NCBI RefSeq assembly: GCF_001767295.1
Contig: NZ_CP014944.1
Location: 186,001-250,000 of the forward strand
Reading direction: 5' to 3'
Origin: Colwellia sp. PAMC 20917
GTDB lineage: Bacteria; Pseudomonadota; Gammaproteobacteria; Enterobacterales; Alteromonadaceae
Length of the DNA stretch: 64,000 nucleotides
Program-made: the position numbers and the translations under genes
Notes under the pieces: generated by a model
What the model was told of the DNA's origin: nothing
Databases searched by the model: none
The model's input: the letters and a program-made list of their open reading frames with translations, nothing else
Shown: positions 1 through 8,957 of the stretch, piece by piece
Position numbering within the stretch: the stretch's first letter is position 1
How the letters are laid out: each line of letters starts with the position of its first letter

Positions 1-576
1 CGCAACTTCAGATAAAATATCTCTTGCATACATTAGGTCTTTAAGTTTTTGCGGGTCTTTAACAGTAATACAATACTTGTCTTTGCTCTTTATGTTTGCA
101 AAAACTTCTTGGGTAGATAATTTATCTACTCTAGAGCCAATTTGGTGTAAGTCTCCTTCTTCGACTTGCCAAAATAAGGACCTAATTTCGTTATAAGATA
201 AGGTAGTGAATATTCTTTCGAATGCAAGATTATTACCTCTACTTAATATTTGGCAATGGGTATGCTTTTTACCACCAATAATTTTTTCTACTTCAATAAT
301 TAAGTGAGAGTATTTAGTAGGGAAATAGTGACCAAATGATTGGTCTTTATCATACTCATCTCCATTAGAGCTTCTAAAATTAAACTTATCTTTTGCTTTA
401 TTAAAATTCACCTCAGGTAATAAAAATAGACGAATACAGTTAAGTAAACTGGATTTACCCACATTGCCTTCACCAAGCAATATAGTATGCTTGTCTAGCT
501 CTATTTCGGAATAACAAAATCCCGCTGAGTCTACTAAAACTAGTTTTTTGAGGACAAAATTAAACTGGTATGCCAT
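1..576 (-). CDS. SMC-like / AAA ATPase, N-terminal part (cut by window edge)
   Basis: Only the first 192 codons are in the window; the gene runs off the left edge. The protein starts MAYQFNFVLKKL and has a Walker A loop GEGNVGKSS at about residues 38-46, followed by LLNCIRLFLLP. This is the layout of SMC, RecF and Wadjet JetC-type ATPases, whose N-terminal P-loop follows a short beta-rich stretch. A run YFPTKYSHLIIEVE follows, also typical of the ATPase head. The start ATG lies 12 bases after the stop of the Toprim-like gene, and its AAGGA ribosome site overlaps that stop, so the two are co-transcribed. The SMC-like call is from motif and context; which family (JetC/MukB-like, LmuB-like or RecF-like) cannot be told without the rest. 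Confidence 0.7.
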   Translation of the reverse strand, partial: MAYQFNFVLKKLVLVDSAGFCYSEIELDKHTILLGEGNVGKSSLLNCIRLFLLPEVNFNKAKDKFNFRSSNGDEYDKDQSFGHYFPTKYSHLIIEVEKIIGGKKHTHCQILSRGNNLAFERIFTTLSYNEIRSLFWQVEEGDLHQIGSRVDKLSTQEVFANIKSKDKYCITVKDPQKLKDLMYARDILSEVA

Positions 577-588
577 ATAGTAATTTCC

Positions 589-1386
589 TTATTCAAAAGC
601 CAAAATGACTTCTTGTTCCATAAATGCGGTTTCTGATAACAAAAGTGAATGTAGTGTCATTAACCCTAACTCTTCTGCACTTGTTAATGCTTTTAAATAC
701 TGACTTTCTTTTTCTGGTTTTTTAATGAAATATTTTCTCAAATTTCCAGAGGTTGGTTCTAAAAACTTAGCTTTTTCACCCAGCATATTTTTCAATGCTT
801 TAAAGATCTTTAAGCCACCAAGATCATAATCAAAAAAACACAAAGTTGATTCATATTGACTTAGGAACTCTTTATTTAACTTATTGGTCACTTGATTACC
901 GGAACCATAAAGTAAATCAGTGTTTTTCAATGAAAGCTTTAGCCCGAAAATGAGGTTTATCTTTTCAAGCATTATTTCTCTTGCGAAAAACAGTTCAGAG
1001 TTCTCAACAATAATCACATGCTGTTTTTGCTTAAACTTACAGTTAATACCATCTATATTAATGACAATTGTGTCTGGATGAATTGAATTCGAATTTTCAT
1101 GGTATGCCAACAAATAACTAGTAGATGTATTTACTTTATGTGAATCACCTAATTCTGTTGCCTCAACACGGTTATTGGGTTCTATTGTTAGTTGCTTTAG
1201 CTGTTCATTAACACGCTTACAAGATATTTCAACTAACGATAAACCGCCTTTTTGGGGCTTTATAGTTACATTGTGTTGCACATCTTCTTGTAAGCTTTCA
1301 GGTAAAAAAGTAAGAAATGTTGCAAAATTTATTGCATCACTATTTGCTATCTTAACTAAGTATTTTGCAATTCTTTTATCGTACAT
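589..1386 (-). CDS. Toprim-like protein, possible JetD-like nuclease subunit
   Basis: A 265-residue protein of no family I can name with certainty. The C-terminal half has the spacing of a Toprim fold: IIVENSELFF (acidic Glu) near residue 127, YGSGNQVT near 160, then CFFDYDLGGLKIF (DxD) near 184. This resembles the DUF2220 Toprim domain of Wadjet JetD (E..., G-G, D-x-D-x-x-G), but the protein is shorter than the roughly 390 residues usual for JetD and lacks an obvious N-terminal DUF3322 arm. It lies between a WYL regulator (24-base gap) and an SMC-like ATPase (12-base gap) on the same strand. I infer a DNA-cleaving or DNA-binding partner of that ATPase. An OLD-family-like Toprim protein is an alternative. 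Confidence 0.5.
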   Translation of the reverse strand: MYDKRIAKYLVKIANSDAINFATFLTFLPESLQEDVQHNVTIKPQKGGLSLVEISCKRVNEQLKQLTIEPNNRVEATELGDSHKVNTSTSYLLAYHENSNSIHPDTIVINIDGINCKFKQKQHVIIVENSELFFAREIMLEKINLIFGLKLSLKNTDLLYGSGNQVTNKLNKEFLSQYESTLCFFDYDLGGLKIFKALKNMLGEKAKFLEPTSGNLRKYFIKKPEKESQYLKALTSAEELGLMTLHSLLLSETAFMEQEVILAFE

Positions 1387-1410
1387 CAGCTATACCGTTA
1401 TAAATTTTCA

Positions 1411-2301
1411 TTAATCATCGAGGCTATTATAACCAGGAGCAATTGCTAAGTTTTCGGCACCATATAATGTTTGTCTGTTCCTTAACCACAACTGAAATTC
1501 CCCACCTGATAAAGTAGCATCATTTGTGCAATCAACATTCCATCGTCTTAGCAGATACCCGGCTAATGCGGCTCTAACATTTAATTCAAGTACCCCGTTA
1601 TCCATCCCATAATCCATCGCTATTGCTGTTGGATGTTTTACATTGTTTGGGTGGGCCACTAAATGCAACGGCATCATTCGCATCCATTGATGATCTTCAA
1701 GTTTATCTTCATGCAATTCTATATTTTGTGGCTTTATTGTTACCTTGCTTATCCTTGTGAGAACAAAGTCTCTAAAGGATTTAGATTTACGATCGTACGC
1801 ACGAACATGCCACCGTAATCCATTATCAATAATAGAATGGGGAACCAATTCTCGTGACGCTGATCCACTGCTTAATGAGGTATAAATAACACTGACTGAT
1901 TTTTTATTGAGTATCGCTTGGATTAATTTGGCTACTATAAAAATATCAGGAACATTTAATTGACTTGGCGCTTCAACCGGAAAGTTAATATCACCAATAG
2001 CATCAAATCCATCGGTAATGTTATTGGCAAGTTTAACTAATGTTTTACGAGCATCAAGCTTGAATAGAGGTTTAAATTTCTTTGCTTGAAAATATTGCTT
2101 TGAAGGGTTGTCTAATTCCGCATTATTAGGGGCTAACTCTTTATACAATGAAATGTCACGAGTGGCATTTGCCATACCCATTTCAAATTTAGTTGTTAGG
2201 TCACTTCGACTAAAAGAACCTTTAAACATTAACAAAAAATCTATATAAGCTAATCGCTGTTTTTGAGAAAAACTTATATTCGAATCACACTCTATTTGCA
2301 T
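1411..2301 (-). CDS. WYL-domain transcriptional regulator (BrxR/CapW type)
   Basis: A protein of about 296 residues. The N-terminus has a winged-helix region (QKQRLAYIDFLLMFKG, then FSRSDLTTKF and ATRDISLYKELAP, near residues 12-58) that matches the start of BrxR/CapW regulators. The middle holds a WYL domain near 130-200, with VSVIYTSLSSG, RELVPHSIIDNGLRWHVRAYD and FRDFVLTRI. A C-terminal WCX-like extension follows. Proteins of this family repress BREX, CBASS and other defence operons and usually stand first in them, as here. A longer ORF begins with TTG at 2316, but ATG 2301 gives the usual family start. An inverted repeat directly upstream is a likely operator. Family call is strong; the ligand is unknown. 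Confidence 0.85.
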   Translation of the reverse strand: MQIECDSNISFSQKQRLAYIDFLLMFKGSFSRSDLTTKFEMGMANATRDISLYKELAPNNAELDNPSKQYFQAKKFKPLFKLDARKTLVKLANNITDGFDAIGDINFPVEAPSQLNVPDIFIVAKLIQAILNKKSVSVIYTSLSSGSASRELVPHSIIDNGLRWHVRAYDRKSKSFRDFVLTRISKVTIKPQNIELHEDKLEDHQWMRMMPLHLVAHPNNVKHPTAIAMDYGMDNGVLELNVRAALAGYLLRRWNVDCTNDATLSGGEFQLWLRNRQTLYGAENLAIAPGYNSLDD

Positions 2302-2316
2302 TATTGAACACACCAA

Positions 2317-2353
2317 GTAATCATTTTGATTACCAAATCATAAGTTAATGATT
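2317..2353 (-). promoter_or_regulatory. inverted repeats upstream of the WYL regulator, possible operator
   Basis: A perfect 7-bp inverted repeat GTAATCA-ttt-TGATTAC (2317-2333) is followed by AATCAT-n6-ATGATT (2336-2353). Both lie just upstream of the regulator start. The TGATTA half-site recurs near 2424. The position fits autorepression of the defence-like operon. That they are operators is inference. Confidence 0.45.
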
Positions 2354-2500: not shown

Positions 2501-3283
2501 TTAAGCAGCGTTATCAAAAGGTTTATCTAACTTTGAGATTAAGTCACTTAATTGCTTATCCCGTACATTAGATAGCTTTGAAACCTCGTTAATAAGGAGT
2601 TTATTTTCAGTTCTTAATTCAGCTTTTTCTGTTTTTAGCTCTGAAATTTCTGTCAGTGCATCCTTAACTCTTTGCTGTACCTCTGCTAAAGAAAGGGTAA
2701 GGTTTTCTACTTCTTTGTCCTTAGAGTCCAACTGAACTGCCAAGGTTGCAACTTCAAGATTAAACTCACCTGCTAACTTTATTTGTCCTTTCGTTTCATC
2801 TTGAGACAATTTCAATGCTTGTTTACATTGTGCATACTCTAACGATATAGCAGTTAACTTACCTTCTAGATCATCAATAGTTAATGAGGCATCATGCACC
2901 TCGGCTTCTGCGTCGTGTTCTCGCTCATTGGCCAGATCAACTGCGGTTGCAACCCGCTGCTCTGCTGTTTTAACAGCCGCATTATTCAACTCTGTTGCAA
3001 GTGCTTTAAGCTTGGTCGTTGTTTCATTAACTACTGCGTTTAACGTTTCTTCAAGCTCCACAGGGAGAGTCAAAGGAGCATAATCTGCATTATTGGATTG
3101 TGAACTTAAGTAAGCTTGCCATACTTTAAGCAGCCTTTTGGGATCTCCGCTATTACCGACCATGCTACGTAGTCCAAACCCCGTTGCTCTCCTCCCTTCT
3201 TCTATTAATTTTTTACCGGCCTCAATTATTTTTTCGTCAGATACTTCTGGTCTTCTGCCTATTACTGGTTGTGCTATATCCAT
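2501..3283 (-). CDS. KfrA-like DNA-binding coiled-coil protein
   Basis: A 260-residue protein. Residues 1-65 match the KfrA N-terminal DNA-binding domain in pattern (GRRPEVSDEKIIEAGKKL, then GLRSMVGNSGDPKRLLKVWQ). From about residue 75 to 250 there is a long, almost pure coiled coil rich in Ala, Glu, Lys and Leu. KfrA proteins are plasmid-borne, bind their own promoters and help plasmid maintenance. Here the gene sits on a chromosomal island between a MobV-like relaxase and the WYL-led operon, on the same strand. Start ATG 3283 has a GAGG site 6-10 bases upstream. A tetranucleotide repeat lies in its leader, which could make expression variable. Confidence 0.7.
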   Translation of the reverse strand: MDIAQPVIGRRPEVSDEKIIEAGKKLIEEGRRATGFGLRSMVGNSGDPKRLLKVWQAYLSSQSNNADYAPLTLPVELEETLNAVVNETTTKLKALATELNNAAVKTAEQRVATAVDLANEREHDAEAEVHDASLTIDDLEGKLTAISLEYAQCKQALKLSQDETKGQIKLAGEFNLEVATLAVQLDSKDKEVENLTLSLAEVQQRVKDALTEISELKTEKAELRTENKLLINEVSKLSNVRDKQLSDLISKLDKPFDNAA

Positions 3284-3361: not shown

Positions 3362-4891
3362 TTATTTAATCGTCGGGTTATCAAAATTACCAGAAACAGT
3401 CAGTCCATTTATAAGCGACTCTTCATTTATTGCCCTTGCGGCAGCACCACAAACGTTATTAAGAAGTGAAGGTTCTAGTGAAGCGAACTCTTTTAATATT
3501 TGCTCAATGAATTCTTGTGCTTTGGTATCTAACCCACGAGCACGTAACGCTGATACGGAGTATATTTTCCGGCAAATATCAGCAATAGCATTACCGCCCT
3601 TCAAATCAAGTATTTTCATTTGTTCGGTTAACTCAATTAAACGCCCTTCTTGATGTTTTAGGTCTTCATAAGATATTTGTGCTTGTGTTGCATAATGCTC
3701 AAGTAGAAATTTTGCTTCTTGAATTTGTGTCACATTTAAATGAAGCGCCGCTTGTTGCTGCTCTAAGTTATTATCCAGCGCTTTTAGCTCACTATGTTCA
3801 GCGCTTATTTTTTGTTGTAACTCATCTAATCGTTTTTTTGCTAATTCATTTGAACGGGAGTTCAGATTAAATTTTCTTAAGGCCTTAGGGAGCTTAGCTT
3901 CTCTATTCATTTGCTTACGTCGCTCAGATTTTTTCTCCGTCGCATCGGCGAATGTAGCCTGTAACCCAATTGGGTTTAATAATTTCTTATTAACATGCTC
4001 ATAGAACATTCTTTGAAAATACTCACCAAAAATTTTTGTTTGTTTTAGATTAAGTTTTCCATTATTTGGCAATCTATCAGTCAACTCACCTTTATTAATG
4101 ATGAATTGATTCACAACAGATATTTGTGTTTTATGTAAATCATATTGGTTGGTAACATTATTCTTACCACTCAAAAAATAGTGAGAATGTGCGCCAACGT
4201 CTTCATTAAGCTCACGCTCATCATGATGACAGACAATGCATTTAATATCGTAATCACCAAAATTCTTTGTTAGAAAATCTTTGACAACATCAATGTATTT
4301 TTCTTTTGAAATAACATCAGTGGTTATGCCCCATTTCAACGGGAACCTAAACAGTCCTTCTTGAACATAAAGACTGTTTTCATGCATAACCTTATTTACC
4401 AGTTTATTATGAGCTTCTACATACGTTTGTAGCATTTTTTCACGCTGACGTTTTCGTGTAGATTCGAGTTTGCTAAACTTATCTAACTTCGAATAAGAGA
4501 TGTGCTTATCATCTGAATACGACATTATTAGACGCATAAACTCTGCTGCCTGAATATTTCCTTTTCGACTTTCAGACTCAATAGCCTTTTTAATCTTAAG
4601 CTTATATTTTCTACGGTTTTCTTGGTGTTTCTTCTTATTATGAACTGGTAATGGAGGAGCAACCTCAAACAATAATGATTGCTTATCATCCACCGTAAAG
4701 TCAGTTAATTTATGATAATCACCATTTAAATAAATAATATTTTCATCAGCTAATTCCTCTCGCCATTGCAAGCCTCTCCCCTCGGGTTGAGAAAAACGCA
4801 GTGTATGAGCCAGTGATGATTCGCATTTTTTCCGCTGTGTTGGCGTAGAATTAGAATTAAATCTACGGTGAAACATCGTTATGGCTTTCAT
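3362..4891 (-). CDS. MobV/Pre-like plasmid mobilisation relaxase
   Basis: A 509-residue protein. Near residues 225-245 it has CHHDERELNE and GAHSHYFLSG, which matches the histidine pattern of Pre/Mob (MobV) relaxases (HxDE...PHxHxxxxP). Residues 150-175 are basic. The segment from about 345 to 445 is a coiled coil (AKKRLDELQQKIS, LDNNLEQQQAAL), also common in MobV proteins. Relaxases nick one strand at oriT and lead it during conjugal transfer. The start ATG has a GAGG site 6 bases upstream that lies inside a hairpin (4893-4915), so translation may be self-limiting. The gene is followed by the KfrA-like gene and preceded by a palindrome-rich oriT candidate. The family call rests on the His motif and context. 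Confidence 0.6.
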   Translation of the reverse strand: MKAITMFHRRFNSNSTPTQRKKCESSLAHTLRFSQPEGRGLQWREELADENIIYLNGDYHKLTDFTVDDKQSLLFEVAPPLPVHNKKKHQENRRKYKLKIKKAIESESRKGNIQAAEFMRLIMSYSDDKHISYSKLDKFSKLESTRKRQREKMLQTYVEAHNKLVNKVMHENSLYVQEGLFRFPLKWGITTDVISKEKYIDVVKDFLTKNFGDYDIKCIVCHHDERELNEDVGAHSHYFLSGKNNVTNQYDLHKTQISVVNQFIINKGELTDRLPNNGKLNLKQTKIFGEYFQRMFYEHVNKKLLNPIGLQATFADATEKKSERRKQMNREAKLPKALRKFNLNSRSNELAKKRLDELQQKISAEHSELKALDNNLEQQQAALHLNVTQIQEAKFLLEHYATQAQISYEDLKHQEGRLIELTEQMKILDLKGGNAIADICRKIYSVSALRARGLDTKAQEFIEQILKEFASLEPSLLNNVCGAAARAINEESLINGLTVSGNFDNPTIK

Positions 4892-5093: not shown

Positions 5094-6197
5094 TTATGCG
5101 CATCGTTTTATCTCCCACTTGCCCGCGGTACAAACACCGAAGTTACCGGCGGAGGATTTACGGTCAGAAATACCTCCCCAAGAAGACACGACTATTTTTG
5201 AGCCCGGCTTCGCTACACTGCAAAGAGTAGCTTTTTTTTCGAATACATCACACAGTGCCTCACCAAGCTGGTTAGAATAATCTGGCGCATCAGCATTCAT
5301 CCACGTACCATAATGCTTTTCTATCATTTTTATAGATGTATGCCCCATCTGCTTGCGTATCCACTCCATATTTAAGCCTTCCGTTAGTGCGTGACTGGCG
5401 AAAGTATGTCTTAGCTGATTTGCGCCTCGTTTCTTAACTTCAGCTTTCAATAAGAAGCCTTTAAAAAATTTTATTGTAAATTCCTTTACATCACGAAATG
5501 GTTTTTTACTCCGACTAGATATAAAGACATGCTGAACGGATTCTTTAACTTTTGATTTGTTGTCTTTTTGCAGAACTCTGATTACACGCTTTTTTAAGTG
5601 ACCTGTTATTTCAAATTGATTTTTCAATATTTCAATTGCATGTGTATTTAAGTCTACTTTTCTAATAGACTTTTTAGTTTTTGGTAACTTATATTTTCCA
5701 AGCACTACAGATTTATTTATTTGAATTTCTGCTTTATCAAAATCAACACAATTCCAAGTTAAAGCTAAAATCTCACAAATTCTGAGGCCCGTGACTACGG
5801 CTAAAAAGAGAAGGTTCTTTTCAGTTACATATTCAGTATCAGTCTTCTGTAGTGCAATAAGCTCATCTTTTGCGAAAGGACAAGGTTCTAAAATGTGTAT
5901 CTCAAGCGTTTTTATATCTTGCATTGGATTAATGGCTATTACCCCATCATTAACAGCTATTTTAAATATTGTACGGAGAATTGATAAATGATCATTAATT
6001 GTCTTATTGTTCAATTTTTTATGAATTTTACCTCTCCAAACTTTTATTTCAGAATGTTTAATACTCGATATCTCACGTTTACCGAATTTTTTAATCAATC
6101 TATTAACTTTTGCTCGGTTTGAGATGTAACTGGAGTAAGCATGTTCACATCTACTTTCATCTAAATATATTTGTGCATAATCTTTAAAAGTATTCAT
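5094..6197 (-). CDS. tyrosine recombinase / integrase
   Basis: A site-specific recombinase of about 367 residues from ATG 6197. An upstream in-frame start at 6263 adds 22 residues that look unlike the family. The N-terminal SAM-like core-binding domain spans about 1-95. The catalytic domain shows Arg in TGLRICEILALTW, HTFASH after QLR (HxxR-type box II), the downstream His in MGHTSIKM and the Tyr in IEKHYGTWM. It probably moves the element carrying the relaxase and KfrA genes. The C-terminal tail after DVFEKKATLCS is unusual: a 13-bp direct repeat (TTCGAATACATCA, 5081-5093 and 5238-5250) and a run of eight A on the coding strand suggest the 3' end has been altered. Confidence 0.9.
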   Translation of the reverse strand: MNTFKDYAQIYLDESRCEHAYSSYISNRAKVNRLIKKFGKREISSIKHSEIKVWRGKIHKKLNNKTINDHLSILRTIFKIAVNDGVIAINPMQDIKTLEIHILEPCPFAKDELIALQKTDTEYVTEKNLLFLAVVTGLRICEILALTWNCVDFDKAEIQINKSVVLGKYKLPKTKKSIRKVDLNTHAIEILKNQFEITGHLKKRVIRVLQKDNKSKVKESVQHVFISSRSKKPFRDVKEFTIKFFKGFLLKAEVKKRGANQLRHTFASHALTEGLNMEWIRKQMGHTSIKMIEKHYGTWMNADAPDYSNQLGEALCDVFEKKATLCSVAKPGSKIVVSSWGGISDRKSSAGNFGVCTAGKWEIKRCA

Positions 6198-6263
6198 TAT
6201 AATCACCAAAGGGTAATTATGCCGCAACGCGACTTGTGATAATTCTAATAAAAAACAAAACAA

Positions 6264-7488: not shown

Positions 7489-8778
7489 TTATTTAATTGT
7501 GGTTAAAAATGGTGCTATTGAAAAATGTAAATGATTAAGTTTTTGAAGTAGCTTTTTAACTGGAAACTTTTTTCCGTATTTCCCGTAGGTAAGATTTTTA
7601 TGGGTATGTCCGACTAACTGAGCAACAAGTGCTTCATCGACTTCTTGTTGCTTGAGTTCGTCGATGAACGTATGCCTAAAGCTATAAGCTGAAGGTCGAT
7701 CATTAGGTAATAAATTTATTGTCGTTGATAAGCGTCCTAACTGTTGGCAATAATTCTTTGACCAGTCATTATCTTTCCCCCCTGGTTTACAGTTAAATAA
7801 AGACTTAGGTCTTTTTGATTGAACGCCATTAACAAAGTCTCCAAACCCTAATTTTAAAAGTGTTGGATGTATTGGCACTATTCGATTAGCCCACTCATTT
7901 TTCAATCGTTGTTTAGGTTTACTATCATTTACGTGAATACAAATTAAACCATCTTGTTCAATGATATCGTCTGTGTACAACTGGCATGTCTCTCCGGGTC
8001 TCAATCCTTGATAAAGTAATACTAATGTTATCCATTGAAAATATTTATCTTTCGTTTTAAAGGCGTCGCTTTGAATTAATAAATTCAATTCGCTCGTTTG
8101 CCAGCGTCTCCGCGCTGAATATGAACCAGTGCCTTCGTTATTTCGGTGAGGTATACCATCAAAAGGATTTTTGTCGATATAGTTCATTAAACTACACCAC
8201 TTAAAAAATTGATAAGCGGCAGCTAAGTAGCCTTTATTGGTTTTGTGAATTCTCTTTTGACTTAACAACAAATCACGATACCTGAGTGCACTACTCGTCG
8301 TTGTTTCCGAAACTTTTTTGAGCTTACTAGACTTGATGAAATGTTGAATTCGTTGAGACAATTGCCTAATCGTTGAATCTAAAATTTTCTCTTTATTTTT
8401 AGATTCAACAAAGCTATCTAAAGCCGTATTTAGCAATACTTGTTGAACATTTGTTTGATGCGGTAGCTGATGGATAACCTTAATAGGTTGTATAGGAAAA
8501 TTAAATGTAACGGGGTATTCACAGTCAAATTCTTCACGTAACCCAGTAATACGGTCATTCAAAGATGATTTGAAGTCATGAGGCATTGTTGTTTCATTAA
8601 TACACTCAATCAACTCAAAAACAGCTAATGAAACAATTAAATTTCGTTTAGTGGCAACAGGCCGAACTTTAGTAAATAAAGATATTTTAATGTCAAAAGG
8701 GAAGCCTCTGTTCTTTAACTCTTTTGAAAAACAGATACGGGTAAAATAGGTGCAATTAGTGGCTCTAAATAAGTACAT
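7489..8778 (-). CDS. tyrosine recombinase / integrase at tRNA-Ser
   Basis: A site-specific integrase of about 429 residues. The start at ATG 8778 (MYLFRATNCTYFTRICF) fits a family whose members begin MYLF; a TTG at 8790 is an alternative. The catalytic domain has Arg in YQGLRPGETCQLY, box II SAYSFRHTF, His in LVGHTHKN and Tyr in TYGKYGKKF. The gene starts about 90 bases from the 3' end of tRNA-Ser(UGA) and reads away from it, the usual position for an integrase that uses the tRNA 3' end as attB. It therefore marks the right end of the island. The other att copy must lie left of the window. Confidence 0.93.
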   Translation of the reverse strand: MYLFRATNCTYFTRICFSKELKNRGFPFDIKISLFTKVRPVATKRNLIVSLAVFELIECINETTMPHDFKSSLNDRITGLREEFDCEYPVTFNFPIQPIKVIHQLPHQTNVQQVLLNTALDSFVESKNKEKILDSTIRQLSQRIQHFIKSSKLKKVSETTTSSALRYRDLLLSQKRIHKTNKGYLAAAYQFFKWCSLMNYIDKNPFDGIPHRNNEGTGSYSARRRWQTSELNLLIQSDAFKTKDKYFQWITLVLLYQGLRPGETCQLYTDDIIEQDGLICIHVNDSKPKQRLKNEWANRIVPIHPTLLKLGFGDFVNGVQSKRPKSLFNCKPGGKDNDWSKNYCQQLGRLSTTINLLPNDRPSAYSFRHTFIDELKQQEVDEALVAQLVGHTHKNLTYGKYGKKFPVKKLLQKLNHLHFSIAPFLTTIK

Positions 8779-8823
8779 TGTCTCAGGCAATCCTGTTGGA
8801 CTGATTTAAAAACCTTCAGACAT

Positions 8824-8866: not shown

Positions 8867-8957
8867 TGGCGGTGAGATAGAGATTTGAACTCTAGAAGGG
8901 CTATAAACCCTTGCTGGTTTTCAAGACCAGTGCTTTCGACCACTCAGCCATCTCACC
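8867..8957 (-). tRNA. tRNA-Ser(UGA)
   Basis: A complete 91-base tRNA with a long variable arm (class II). Acceptor strands GGTGAGA and TCTCACC pair, CCA is encoded, and the anticodon loop CTTGAAA sits on the stem CTGGT/ACCAG, giving anticodon TGA. The T-loop GTTCAAATC is canonical. It is the probable integration site of the island to its left; the gene itself is intact. Confidence 0.97.

Follow-up and report, generated by a model that had tools for sequence, protein, structure and literature searches.

Does an operon that begins with a WYL regulator and continues with a small Toprim-like protein and an SMC-like ATPase encode a new variant of a Wadjet/SMC-type defense system, as a sequence-only reading of this DNA had proposed? 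The window analyzed here is a stretch of 64,000 nucleotides of Colwellia sp. PAMC 20917 (contig NZ_CP014944.1, C1 below, positions 186,001 to 250,000), and the operon crosses its left edge. Our answer, to which we give a probability of about 70%, is that the operon encodes a divergent SMC complex of the Wadjet/MksBEFG group with its own Toprim nuclease and its own gene order, D-C-A-B (nuclease, SMC, kleisin, KITE), and that, by extension from Wadjet I, it would cut small circles. The genes are the following, in window positions unless C1 is given.

1411..2316, minus strand: WYL regulator of BrxR/CapW type, 301 aa, the operon's first gene (ORF; Pfam WYL 3.5e-12)
589..1386, minus strand: putative Toprim nuclease D, predicted to be JetD/MksG-like, 265 aa (Pfam JetD_C)
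1..576, minus strand: SMC ATPase C, 983 aa, with its N-terminal 192 aa in the window and the rest running to C1:183625
C1:182244-183638, minus strand: kleisin A, MukF-like by predicted fold, 464 aa, outside the window, after the SMC
C1:181645-182244, minus strand: KITE B, MksE-family, 199 aa, outside the window, after the kleisin

The regulator, the 265-aa protein and the ATPase with its GEGNVGKSS motif are consecutive on the minus strand just where they had been described, and the gaps, said to be of 12-25 bases, measure 24 bases between the WYL and Toprim genes and 12 between the Toprim and ATPase genes. The sequence to the left of window base 1 completes both the ATPase, whose translation carries a Walker A (GEGNVGKS), a signature (KQQSTST) and a Walker B (PVIMDE), and the operon, WYL-D-C-A-B, tightly packed on a single strand. 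JetA and JetB, which had seemed possibly missing, have counterparts here: JetA/JetB-like genes for a kleisin and a KITE do lie to the left of base 1, but downstream of the ATPase. An ATPase of the RecF or housekeeping ABC kind is ruled out by the kleisin-like and MksE-family proteins encoded in the operon. One could also think of a degraded or inactive Wadjet remnant, given a short nuclease, an unusual order, and several broken relatives (a split SMC and kleisin in locus L078, a split SMC in L077, a split kleisin in L063). We give this almost no credence, since in the genome of the window all four frames (D, C, A and B) run to full length and keep their motifs intact, and similar lengths and order are found across many species.

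The Toprim protein scores 23.7 bits against Pfam JetD_C, above the cut-off of 22, and 27 of 37 family Toprims match that model. Residues E128, D186, E257 and E259 are present in 70/70 of the homologs counted, and D188 in 69/70; they match the TIEN, DxD and EQE motifs found in three JetDs of type I. This Toprim pattern goes far beyond chance. The predicted model (pLDDT 94.7) has helices and a hairpin preceding the Toprim core, and Foldseek returns MksG 8b7f as its top PDB match (E 2.9e-5, prob 1.00, over an alignment of 284 columns, with a TM of only 0.43/0.33), then Topo VI-A; P. aeruginosa JetD comes at rank 11 (E 0.013). The Toprim assignment, first made from E and DxD spacing, is thus borne out by profile, conservation and fold comparison, and on the strength of the model the protein is a predicted nuclease of the Topo VI-A/MksG fold with the E, DxD and EQE residues. 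Against a type I JetD profile of three sequences, hhalign gives a probability of 62. Pfam finds no DUF3322 in the 265-aa protein, this being the N-terminal arm domain of type I JetD (DUF3322/CAP). As had been noted, the Toprim gene precedes the ATPase gene and its product is shorter than JetD, 265 aa vs. 394-430 aa in three type I controls; therefore the regulatory arm probably differs.

For the other three subunits the evidence is of uneven strength. Using type I Wadjet profiles, which held three sequences each, hhalign aligns the SMC to JetC with probability 95.6 over 115 columns around Walker A, while the kleisin and the KITE score 0.4 and 3.1. The KITE is Pfam MksE in all 13 members scanned. 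Pfam has no model that matches the kleisin, and neither JetA (PF18982) nor DUF3375 (PF11855) matches any of 36 family kleisins. A fold comparison was needed because neither JetABCD nor MukBEF came up when PDB sequences were searched with profiles of the Toprim, the kleisin, the KITE and the SMC. The kleisin was modeled on a relative from locus L019 with moderate confidence (pLDDT 77, pTM 0.43). Its top PDB matches are chains D of MukBEF 9gm7 and MukEF 9gmb (prob 1.00), followed at ranks 3 and 4 by chains E of JetABC(D) 8q72 and 8as8 (prob 0.54 and 0.41), and at rank 8 by MukF(1-287) 1t98 (prob 0.98); none of these PDB matches reaches E 0.001, the best being 2.3e-3 with TM 0.28/0.41. An SMC, a kleisin and a KITE are encoded together, where the kleisin is assigned through this moderate-confidence model.

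Could the SMC belong instead to a Lamassu-like system, a Rad50/SMC protein with an effector? The KITE weakly matches the PADLOC LmuC model (E 2.9e-4), and LmuB is the best model for 4 of 13 SMC members (best E 4.4e-7). According to PMC10586767, Lamassu consists of LmuA, LmuB and often LmuC. The operon does not fit a composition of LmuB with an LmuA effector and no kleisin. Its kleisin has a predicted fold like that of MukF, its KITE is of the MksE family, and its nuclease is Topo VI/MksG-like, all of which make a Lamassu-like system very improbable.

How do existing tools see this operon? PADLOC reports JetD1 at 1.1e-5 (the C-terminal third only), JetC1 at 0.0019 and JetB1 at 0.032, and none of its Jet models matches the window kleisin. 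In other words, the Wadjet I-III models do not recognize these Jet proteins beyond weak, partial matches. As a control, the type II locus L102 is matched by its own models, JetA2-D2, at E 1e-130 or better. A scan of the wider family, covering 37 Toprims and 13 SMCs at E 0.001, finds at most 11 of the Toprims with any JetD model (a JetD3 model) and no JetC model matching above 3 of the SMCs. Two type III JetD models match 11 and 9 of the 37 Toprims, with a best E of 9.5e-9, and on these profile matches there may be kinship with type III Wadjet. No type III locus was found in 143 genomes by JetD3 or in 398 by JetC3, in a search in which the control genomes also gave no match.

The comparison with named systems goes both ways. 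With Wadjet type I and MksBEFG, the operon shares an SMC, a kleisin, a KITE and a Toprim nuclease with E, DxD and EQE kept, and searches with its predicted folds return MksG and MukBEF/MukEF chains, with JetABC chains ranking lower. It differs from both in that a WYL regulator accompanies a minority of the D-C-A-B family loci, and in its weak, partial PADLOC matches. The D-C-A-B order is different from that of Wadjet types I and II, which is A-B-C-D in the three type I controls (L114-L116) and in the one type II control, L102. The type I SMCs measure 1131-1195 aa vs. 983 aa here. Type II also has an SMC, accessory subunits and a Toprim nuclease, but the L102 SMC is 1377 aa long, and the window operon does not match the models of that type. 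MksBEFG would have the order F-E-B-G, as PMC10123090 gives it for C. glutamicum, and a DUF3375 or JetA kleisin; the operon has neither. With MukBEF and DUF3375-type MksBEF it shares a KITE of Pfam MksE and a kleisin model closest to MukBEF/MukEF chains, and some D-C-A-B relatives also lack an adjoining nuclease gene; however, the DUF3375-type loci L119 and L122 read kleisin-KITE-SMC vs. C-A-B here, where a Toprim normally leads. The locus L117, in another genome of the class, has an adjoining WYL gene of the same family, a 277-aa Toprim, a 936-aa SMC and an MksE-family KITE; it differs in its A-B-C-D order (with a 413-aa gene called kleisin by place only), in a divergent WYL, and in an SMC and a Toprim that are only distantly related (smc2 92 bits, toprim2 22 bits). 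With four Wadjet-group parts, an order of its own, and weak PADLOC matches, the proposal of a new Wadjet/SMC-type variant is supported.

The operon sits on a 27.9-kb tRNA-Ser island with the following features.

8867..8895 (C1:194867-194895), plus strand: att-like 29-bp exact repeat, equal to the tRNA-Ser(TGA) 3' end
8867-8957, minus strand: tRNA-Ser(TGA) gene
7489..8790, minus strand: tyrosine integrase adjoining the tRNA att site (Pfam Phage_integrase 1.3e-10)
5094..6263, minus strand: second island tyrosine integrase (Pfam Phage_integrase 2.8e-18)
2501..3283, minus strand: KfrA-like DNA-binding protein, an island gene upstream of the operon (Pfam KfrA_N 1.6e-12)
C1:166981-167009: the other copy of the 29-bp repeat, outside the window

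In the three congeners whose site was compared, some 170-210 bp from the left of one repeat are joined directly to the sequence to the right of the other; the joined block is short, tandemly repeated in one congener, and the genes further left have no alignment. Together with the repeat and the integrase, these joined flanks support the mobile island that had been described. A Tmn-type gene adjoins the operon on the island. Phage records searched with the SMC of locus L012 as the query gave no match.

The regulator matches PDB 7qfz, titled 'WYL domain-containing protein' and which we take to be a BrxR, with E 2.2e-81 over residues 14-297, CapW 9c5g with 2.1e-35 over residues 15-264, and BrxR 7t8k with 2.1e-25. 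This similarity spans most of its length, placing it among the BrxR/CapW proteins as had been proposed. Of 77 loci, only 12 have a WYL gene in the 2.3 kb upstream of their SMC gene, therefore the regulator does not count among the constant parts of the system. BrxR homologs are reported to co-localize with Wadjet, among other systems (PMC9122601). Here, the WYL protein would probably repress the operon until an invasion signal arrives.

Of 71 uncut loci, 62 have the order D-C-A-B on one strand and the other 9 have C-A-B without an intact Toprim; no other order appears among them. The Toprim is gone, with full-length SMC, kleisin and KITE frames kept, from nine Marinobacter loci and also from L019, a WYL-led locus of an Alteromonadaceae MAG. 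Because C-A-B is kept when the Toprim is lost, cutting plasmids is not necessarily all that the system does.

These loci speak for a different explanation, in which the SMC core is mainly a chromosome-organizing condensin, equivalent to MksBEF/MukBEF, and the Toprim is no defense effector but an optional partner, for instance in decatenation-like or repair cleavage. According to PMC7617805, several members of the Wadjet group have no nuclease, and MukBEF folds the chromosome. Selection on the SMC in Marinobacter points the same way: branch dN/dS is 0.04-0.19 in the nine nuclease-less loci vs. 0.04-0.24 in their Toprim-bearing sisters (lower in 5 of 9 cases, higher in 4). These are rough estimates by simple Nei-Gojobori counting, with pairwise dS reaching about 1.1 and outgroups that in some cases belong to other genera, and they give no date for the deletions within the branches. 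The pair L064 and L081, which by eye has one common deletion junction, gives dN/dS values of 0.052 (SMC), 0.044 (kleisin) and 0.046 (KITE). Both of these genomes carry a Toprim at another site, frameshifted in one of the two, so the pair is weakened as proof of a nuclease-free function, and we rely on the nine-branch comparison. Many Marinobacter loci have neighbor families in common (of the loci in two such sets, 18 of 19 and 13 of 14 carry the title Marinobacter), and four Colwellia loci have common flanks; therefore these loci behave like resident chromosomal genes. Against the condensin explanation, the window operon is on an integrase/tRNA island, next to a Tmn-type gene and behind a BrxR/CapW-type regulator. 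Moreover, changes at the active-site residues of the Toprim are very rare, most uncut loci keep their Toprim, and 4 of the 10 nuclease-less loci are in genomes with a solitary Toprim elsewhere (one broken). L091 and L144 are such separated copies in one genome, while for the strains of the Marinobacter loci L059 and L069 no Toprim was found. On balance, we consider a primarily condensin function unlikely.

A tentative reading, to which we give somewhat less than even odds, divides the family: the complete island copies with a WYL gene, the window's among them, would stay defensive, while the resident chromosomal copies in Marinobacter would have shed the nuclease repeatedly on the way to chromosome maintenance, with selection still acting on the loop-extruding motor and the nuclease maybe acting in trans. 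Under that reading, two operon copies in some genomes would have lost complementary parts, one the motor and the other the nuclease.

Returning to a divergent Wadjet/MksBEFG-group complex, its action can be pictured after the mechanism of Wadjet I, as described in PMC12647877 and PMC10586767. The SMC-kleisin-KITE motor would load on DNA and extrude loops; a small circle would be reeled in fully, which would activate the nuclease and lead to a cut, and the large chromosome would be spared. By this analogy, the system probably cuts small circular DNA, and the operon would act in defense. In the loci with a deleted nuclease, the motor probably either has its own role, as in MukBEF, or works together with a nuclease whose gene lies at another site of the genome.

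Among the literature titles and abstract openings searched, none describes a D-C-A-B operon, and a search for DUF7281, PF23947 or PF21980 turned up no paper; Data S1 of the 2025 survey PMC7617805, a list of Wadjet-group operons, may include this family. The D-C-A-B family adds a divergent SMC-nuclease branch, largely overlooked by the PADLOC and Pfam models applied here, and it makes available natural pairs of close relatives in which one has the nuclease and the other lacks it. Such pairs bear on what the motor does alone. Did the MukBEF/MksBEF condensins arise from plasmid-restriction machines by loss of the nuclease? With these pairs the question becomes testable, and, if the reading is true, the D-C-A-B family catches the change from defense to chromosome maintenance in progress.

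The ATPase gene is open at the window edge, and the remaining operon genes were found in the sequence to the left of the window. The sequence-only reading had seen no JetA/JetB, and this changes: to the left of base 1, kleisin (A) and KITE (B) genes lie downstream of the ATPase in this single-contig genome of 4.68 Mb. The leading three genes (the window is C1:186001-250000) are indeed consecutive at short spacing:

window 1411-2316, minus strand: ORF of the WYL regulator
window 589-1386, minus strand: ORF of the Toprim protein (D), 265 aa
C1:183625-186576, minus strand: ORF of the SMC ATPase (C), 983 aa, read beyond the window edge; its first 192 residues are window 1-576

The WYL/Toprim gap is 24 bases, and the Toprim/ATPase gap is 12. 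The ATPase is followed by a 464-aa gene (14 bases of overlap), and that by a 199-aa gene, with one base common to both. The gene set is therefore, in order, WYL, Toprim (D), SMC (C), kleisin (A), and KITE (B). The C-terminus of the ATPase, the other thing to be sought left of base 1, completes a full frame, and its translation has the Walker A, signature, and Walker B motifs all intact.

Judging from its PDB matches, the WYL protein is of the BrxR/CapW type: 7qfz (E 2.2e-81; titled WYL protein, and which we take to be BrxR), CapW 9c5g (E 2.1e-35), and BrxR 7t8k (E 2.1e-25). The 265-aa protein scores above the Pfam JetD_C cut-off (23.7 vs. 22) and just below that of DUF7281 (26.6 vs. 27). The Toprim fold proposed for it from motif spacing is supported by structure prediction. 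An AlphaFold2 model (pLDDT 94.7, alignment of 37 homologues) has as its top PDB match the C. glutamicum MksG nuclease 8b7f (E 2.9e-5, probability 1.00, TM 0.43/0.33), topoisomerase VI-A chains are also among the best matches, and P. aeruginosa JetD comes at rank 11 (E 0.013). Among Toprim homologues whose frames reach 230 aa or more (a further three were dropped along with their duplicates), E128, D186, E257, and E259 are invariant in 70/70 and D188 in 69/70. The TIEN, DxD, and EQE motifs are common to the window Toprim and three type I JetDs. According to PMC10123090, mutation of MksG E236 or D279 drastically impairs the nuclease, and E349 and E351 are the proposed nucleophiles. Judging by order and spacing, the counterparts of MksG E236, D279, and E349/E351 would be E128, D186, and the EQE pair of the window Toprim.

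Pfam kleisin models match neither the 464-aa protein nor any of its relatives (0/36 scanned). A model built on the relative from L019, a WYL-led Alteromonadaceae MAG locus without a Toprim, has pLDDT 77. Its first PDB matches are chains D of MukBEF 9gm7 and MukEF 9gmb (probability 1.00, E 2.3e-3 and 6.7e-3), followed by chains E from JetABC(D) structures at ranks 3 and 4 (probability 0.54 and 0.41, respectively) and by MukF(1-287) 1t98 at rank 8 (probability 0.98); no match in this search reaches E 0.001 or better. By chain length, we take chains D to be MukF and chains E to be JetA. The 199-aa protein belongs to the Pfam MksE family (E 8.9e-22), as do all 13 KITE members scanned.

How does this operon compare with the named Wadjet types? 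The type I (L114-L116) and type II (L102) control loci have the order A-B-C-D, whereas the window operon is D-C-A-B. Against its own PADLOC models the type II control scores 1e-130 or better, whereas the window Toprim matches JetD1 at 1.1e-5, in the C-terminal third only, the SMC matches JetC1 at 0.0019, the KITE matches JetB1 at 0.032, and no PADLOC Jet model matches the kleisin. For the window proteins, the PADLOC Wadjet models thus give fragmentary scores only. In the wider family, any one JetD model picks up at most 11 of 37 Toprims, and any one JetC model at most 3 of 13 SMCs; the most frequent and strongest JetD matches are to type III models (11 and 9 of 37, best E 9.5e-9). When profiles are compared with those of type I Wadjet, the Toprim reaches a probability of 62 and the SMC one of 95.6, the latter over 115 columns surrounding Walker A; the kleisin and the KITE show no match. 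The suggestion of a new Wadjet/SMC-type variant holds to the extent that the four part classes are present, and that order and PADLOC models differ from types I and II. By its parts and predicted folds, the complex would therefore work like one of the Wadjet group, although its gene order and model scores are not those of types I and II.

A locus from another genome of the class (L117:1174-7887) is related to the window operon, yet its order is different: a divergent WYL, then kleisin-KITE-SMC-Toprim (assigned by place), with a Toprim of 277 aa and an SMC of 936 aa. PADLOC gives it weak LmuB and JetC1 matches only.

A scan of species genomes gave 80 loci, the best 80 of 89 relatives, a biased sample that is mostly Marinobacter. 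Adding five loci from genomes of the order and the window genome, and removing three duplicates and three partial loci, leaves 83, of which 71 are flanked well enough on both sides and the other 12 end at contig ends. Using the longest frame per kind, and including the split-frame loci L063 and L078 and the interrupted L095, 62/71 have Toprim-SMC-kleisin-KITE on one strand and 9/71 SMC-kleisin-KITE; no other order occurs among these 71. In 12/77 loci, a WYL gene of the window kind is found no more than 2.3 kb upstream of the SMC; six of these genes point the same way as the operon, one of them a weak match, and six are divergent. The family is uncommon, since SMC matches at 1e-10 occur in 5/197 genomes of the order and Toprim matches at 1e-6 in 4/369 of the class, the window genome included in both. 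Two of 72,556 plasmid records have SMC matches; each carries the four genes in D-C-A-B order, the eight genes are all annotated 'hypothetical protein', and one copy has an adjoining WYL gene.

Individual copies vary. In the Photobacterium plasmid copy, two small genes, one of them DUF5406, lie between SMC and kleisin (L146:9929-10703). At L095:7476-9927, a reversed 357-aa gene and then an 83-aa Toprim fragment stand between the Toprim and the SMC, the result of an insertion or of a partial duplication. Marinobacter similis (complete genome, L078:9971-14345) has both its SMC and its kleisin broken into several frames, and this copy looks decayed.

Nine Marinobacter loci have an open SMC frame with no Toprim gene before it. 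By profile search, seven of these loci retain remnants of the Toprim C-terminus; L031 has an MEQE remnant by eye, and L069 has none. In L019 only about 13 final Toprim codons are left. By eye, the deletion junctions are all different, except for one common to L064 and L081. In all ten nuclease-less loci the SMC is full length with its ATP-binding motifs, and kleisin and KITE are also open. Rough estimates of SMC dN/dS are 0.04-0.19 on the nine nuclease-less Marinobacter branches and 0.04-0.24 on their Toprim-bearing sisters, lower than the sister in five cases and higher in four. A whole-genome search, positive in 4/4 genomes with intact operons, found no full-length Toprim in six of the ten nuclease-less genomes, as far as drafts and MAGs allow; in one of these six, another frame, of 320 aa, gives a weak match. 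The genomes of L064, L081, L031, and L091 (4/10) have a Toprim at another site. The stand-alone Toprim genes, from Marinobacter genomes whose SMC loci lack one, are:

L141:7233-8015: stand-alone Toprim
L142:9595-10434: stand-alone Toprim, frameshifted near its end
L143:9148-10128: stand-alone Toprim
L144:8870-9649: stand-alone Toprim, then 42 SMC residues fused to a kleisin piece

None of the four has SMC, kleisin, or KITE genes alongside. One set of neighbour families recurs around 19 loci and a second set around 14, with 18 and 13 of these loci, respectively, titled Marinobacter. In the L064 and L081 genomes, the motor occupies one of these two recurrent positions and the lone Toprim occupies the other. 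Within the limits of draft assemblies and MAGs, this looks like two operon copies with complementary losses.

In the window genome, an exact 29-bp repeat of the tRNA-Ser(TGA) 3′ end is found at C1:166981-167009 and, at the tRNA itself, at C1:194867-194895. The ~27.9 kb between them hold two integrases, an IS110-type transposase, a KfrA-like gene, the D-C-A-B operon, a methyltransferase-HNH fusion, a Tmn-like ATPase, and a DUF3427 helicase, and look like a defence island:

C1:175829-179491 (L002/L003, left of the window): large YobI-type ATPase, PADLOC Tmn E 2.7e-72
C1:179633-181522 (L002:3633-5522, left of the window): methyltransferase and HNH fusion, 629 aa, after the KITE gene
window 3362-4891: 509-aa gene, 78 bases from the KfrA-like gene; no Pfam match

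The YobI-type ATPase adjoins the methyltransferase-HNH gene, with a PLD-helicase-DUF3427 protein beyond on the opposite strand. The methyltransferase-HNH N-terminus resembles MADS mad2 (E 8.8e-13). One homologue of the fusion adjoins a distant D-C-A-B operon (L014), and others lie upstream of Marinobacter operons (L034, L041 in two frames, L050, L054, L069). In the three congeners (of five) compared at this site, ~170-210 bp left of one repeat are directly joined to the sequence right of the other; this block is short, one congener has it in tandem repeats, and genes further left do not align. The nearest SMC relatives among the best 80 of 89 (Colwellia, Pseudoalteromonas, an Alteromonadaceae MAG, and a MAG titled Bacteroidetes) are 64-72% identical, and their neighbours are mostly unrelated, in contrast to four Colwellia loci that share one flank set. 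Colwellia sp. E2M01 has two systems on separate tree branches (L021, L029).

The D-C-A-B family fits the Wadjet group of PMC7617805, whose members often but not always have a nuclease; the supplementary list of that paper may include this family. Parts, residues, and gene order are observed directly; how the complex loads, extrudes, and is activated, and what the WYL regulator does, we infer. By analogy with Wadjet I, as described in PMC12647877 and PMC10586767, the SMC-kleisin-KITE motor would extrude DNA, a small circle would be extruded completely, and the nuclease would cut the circle after full extrusion.
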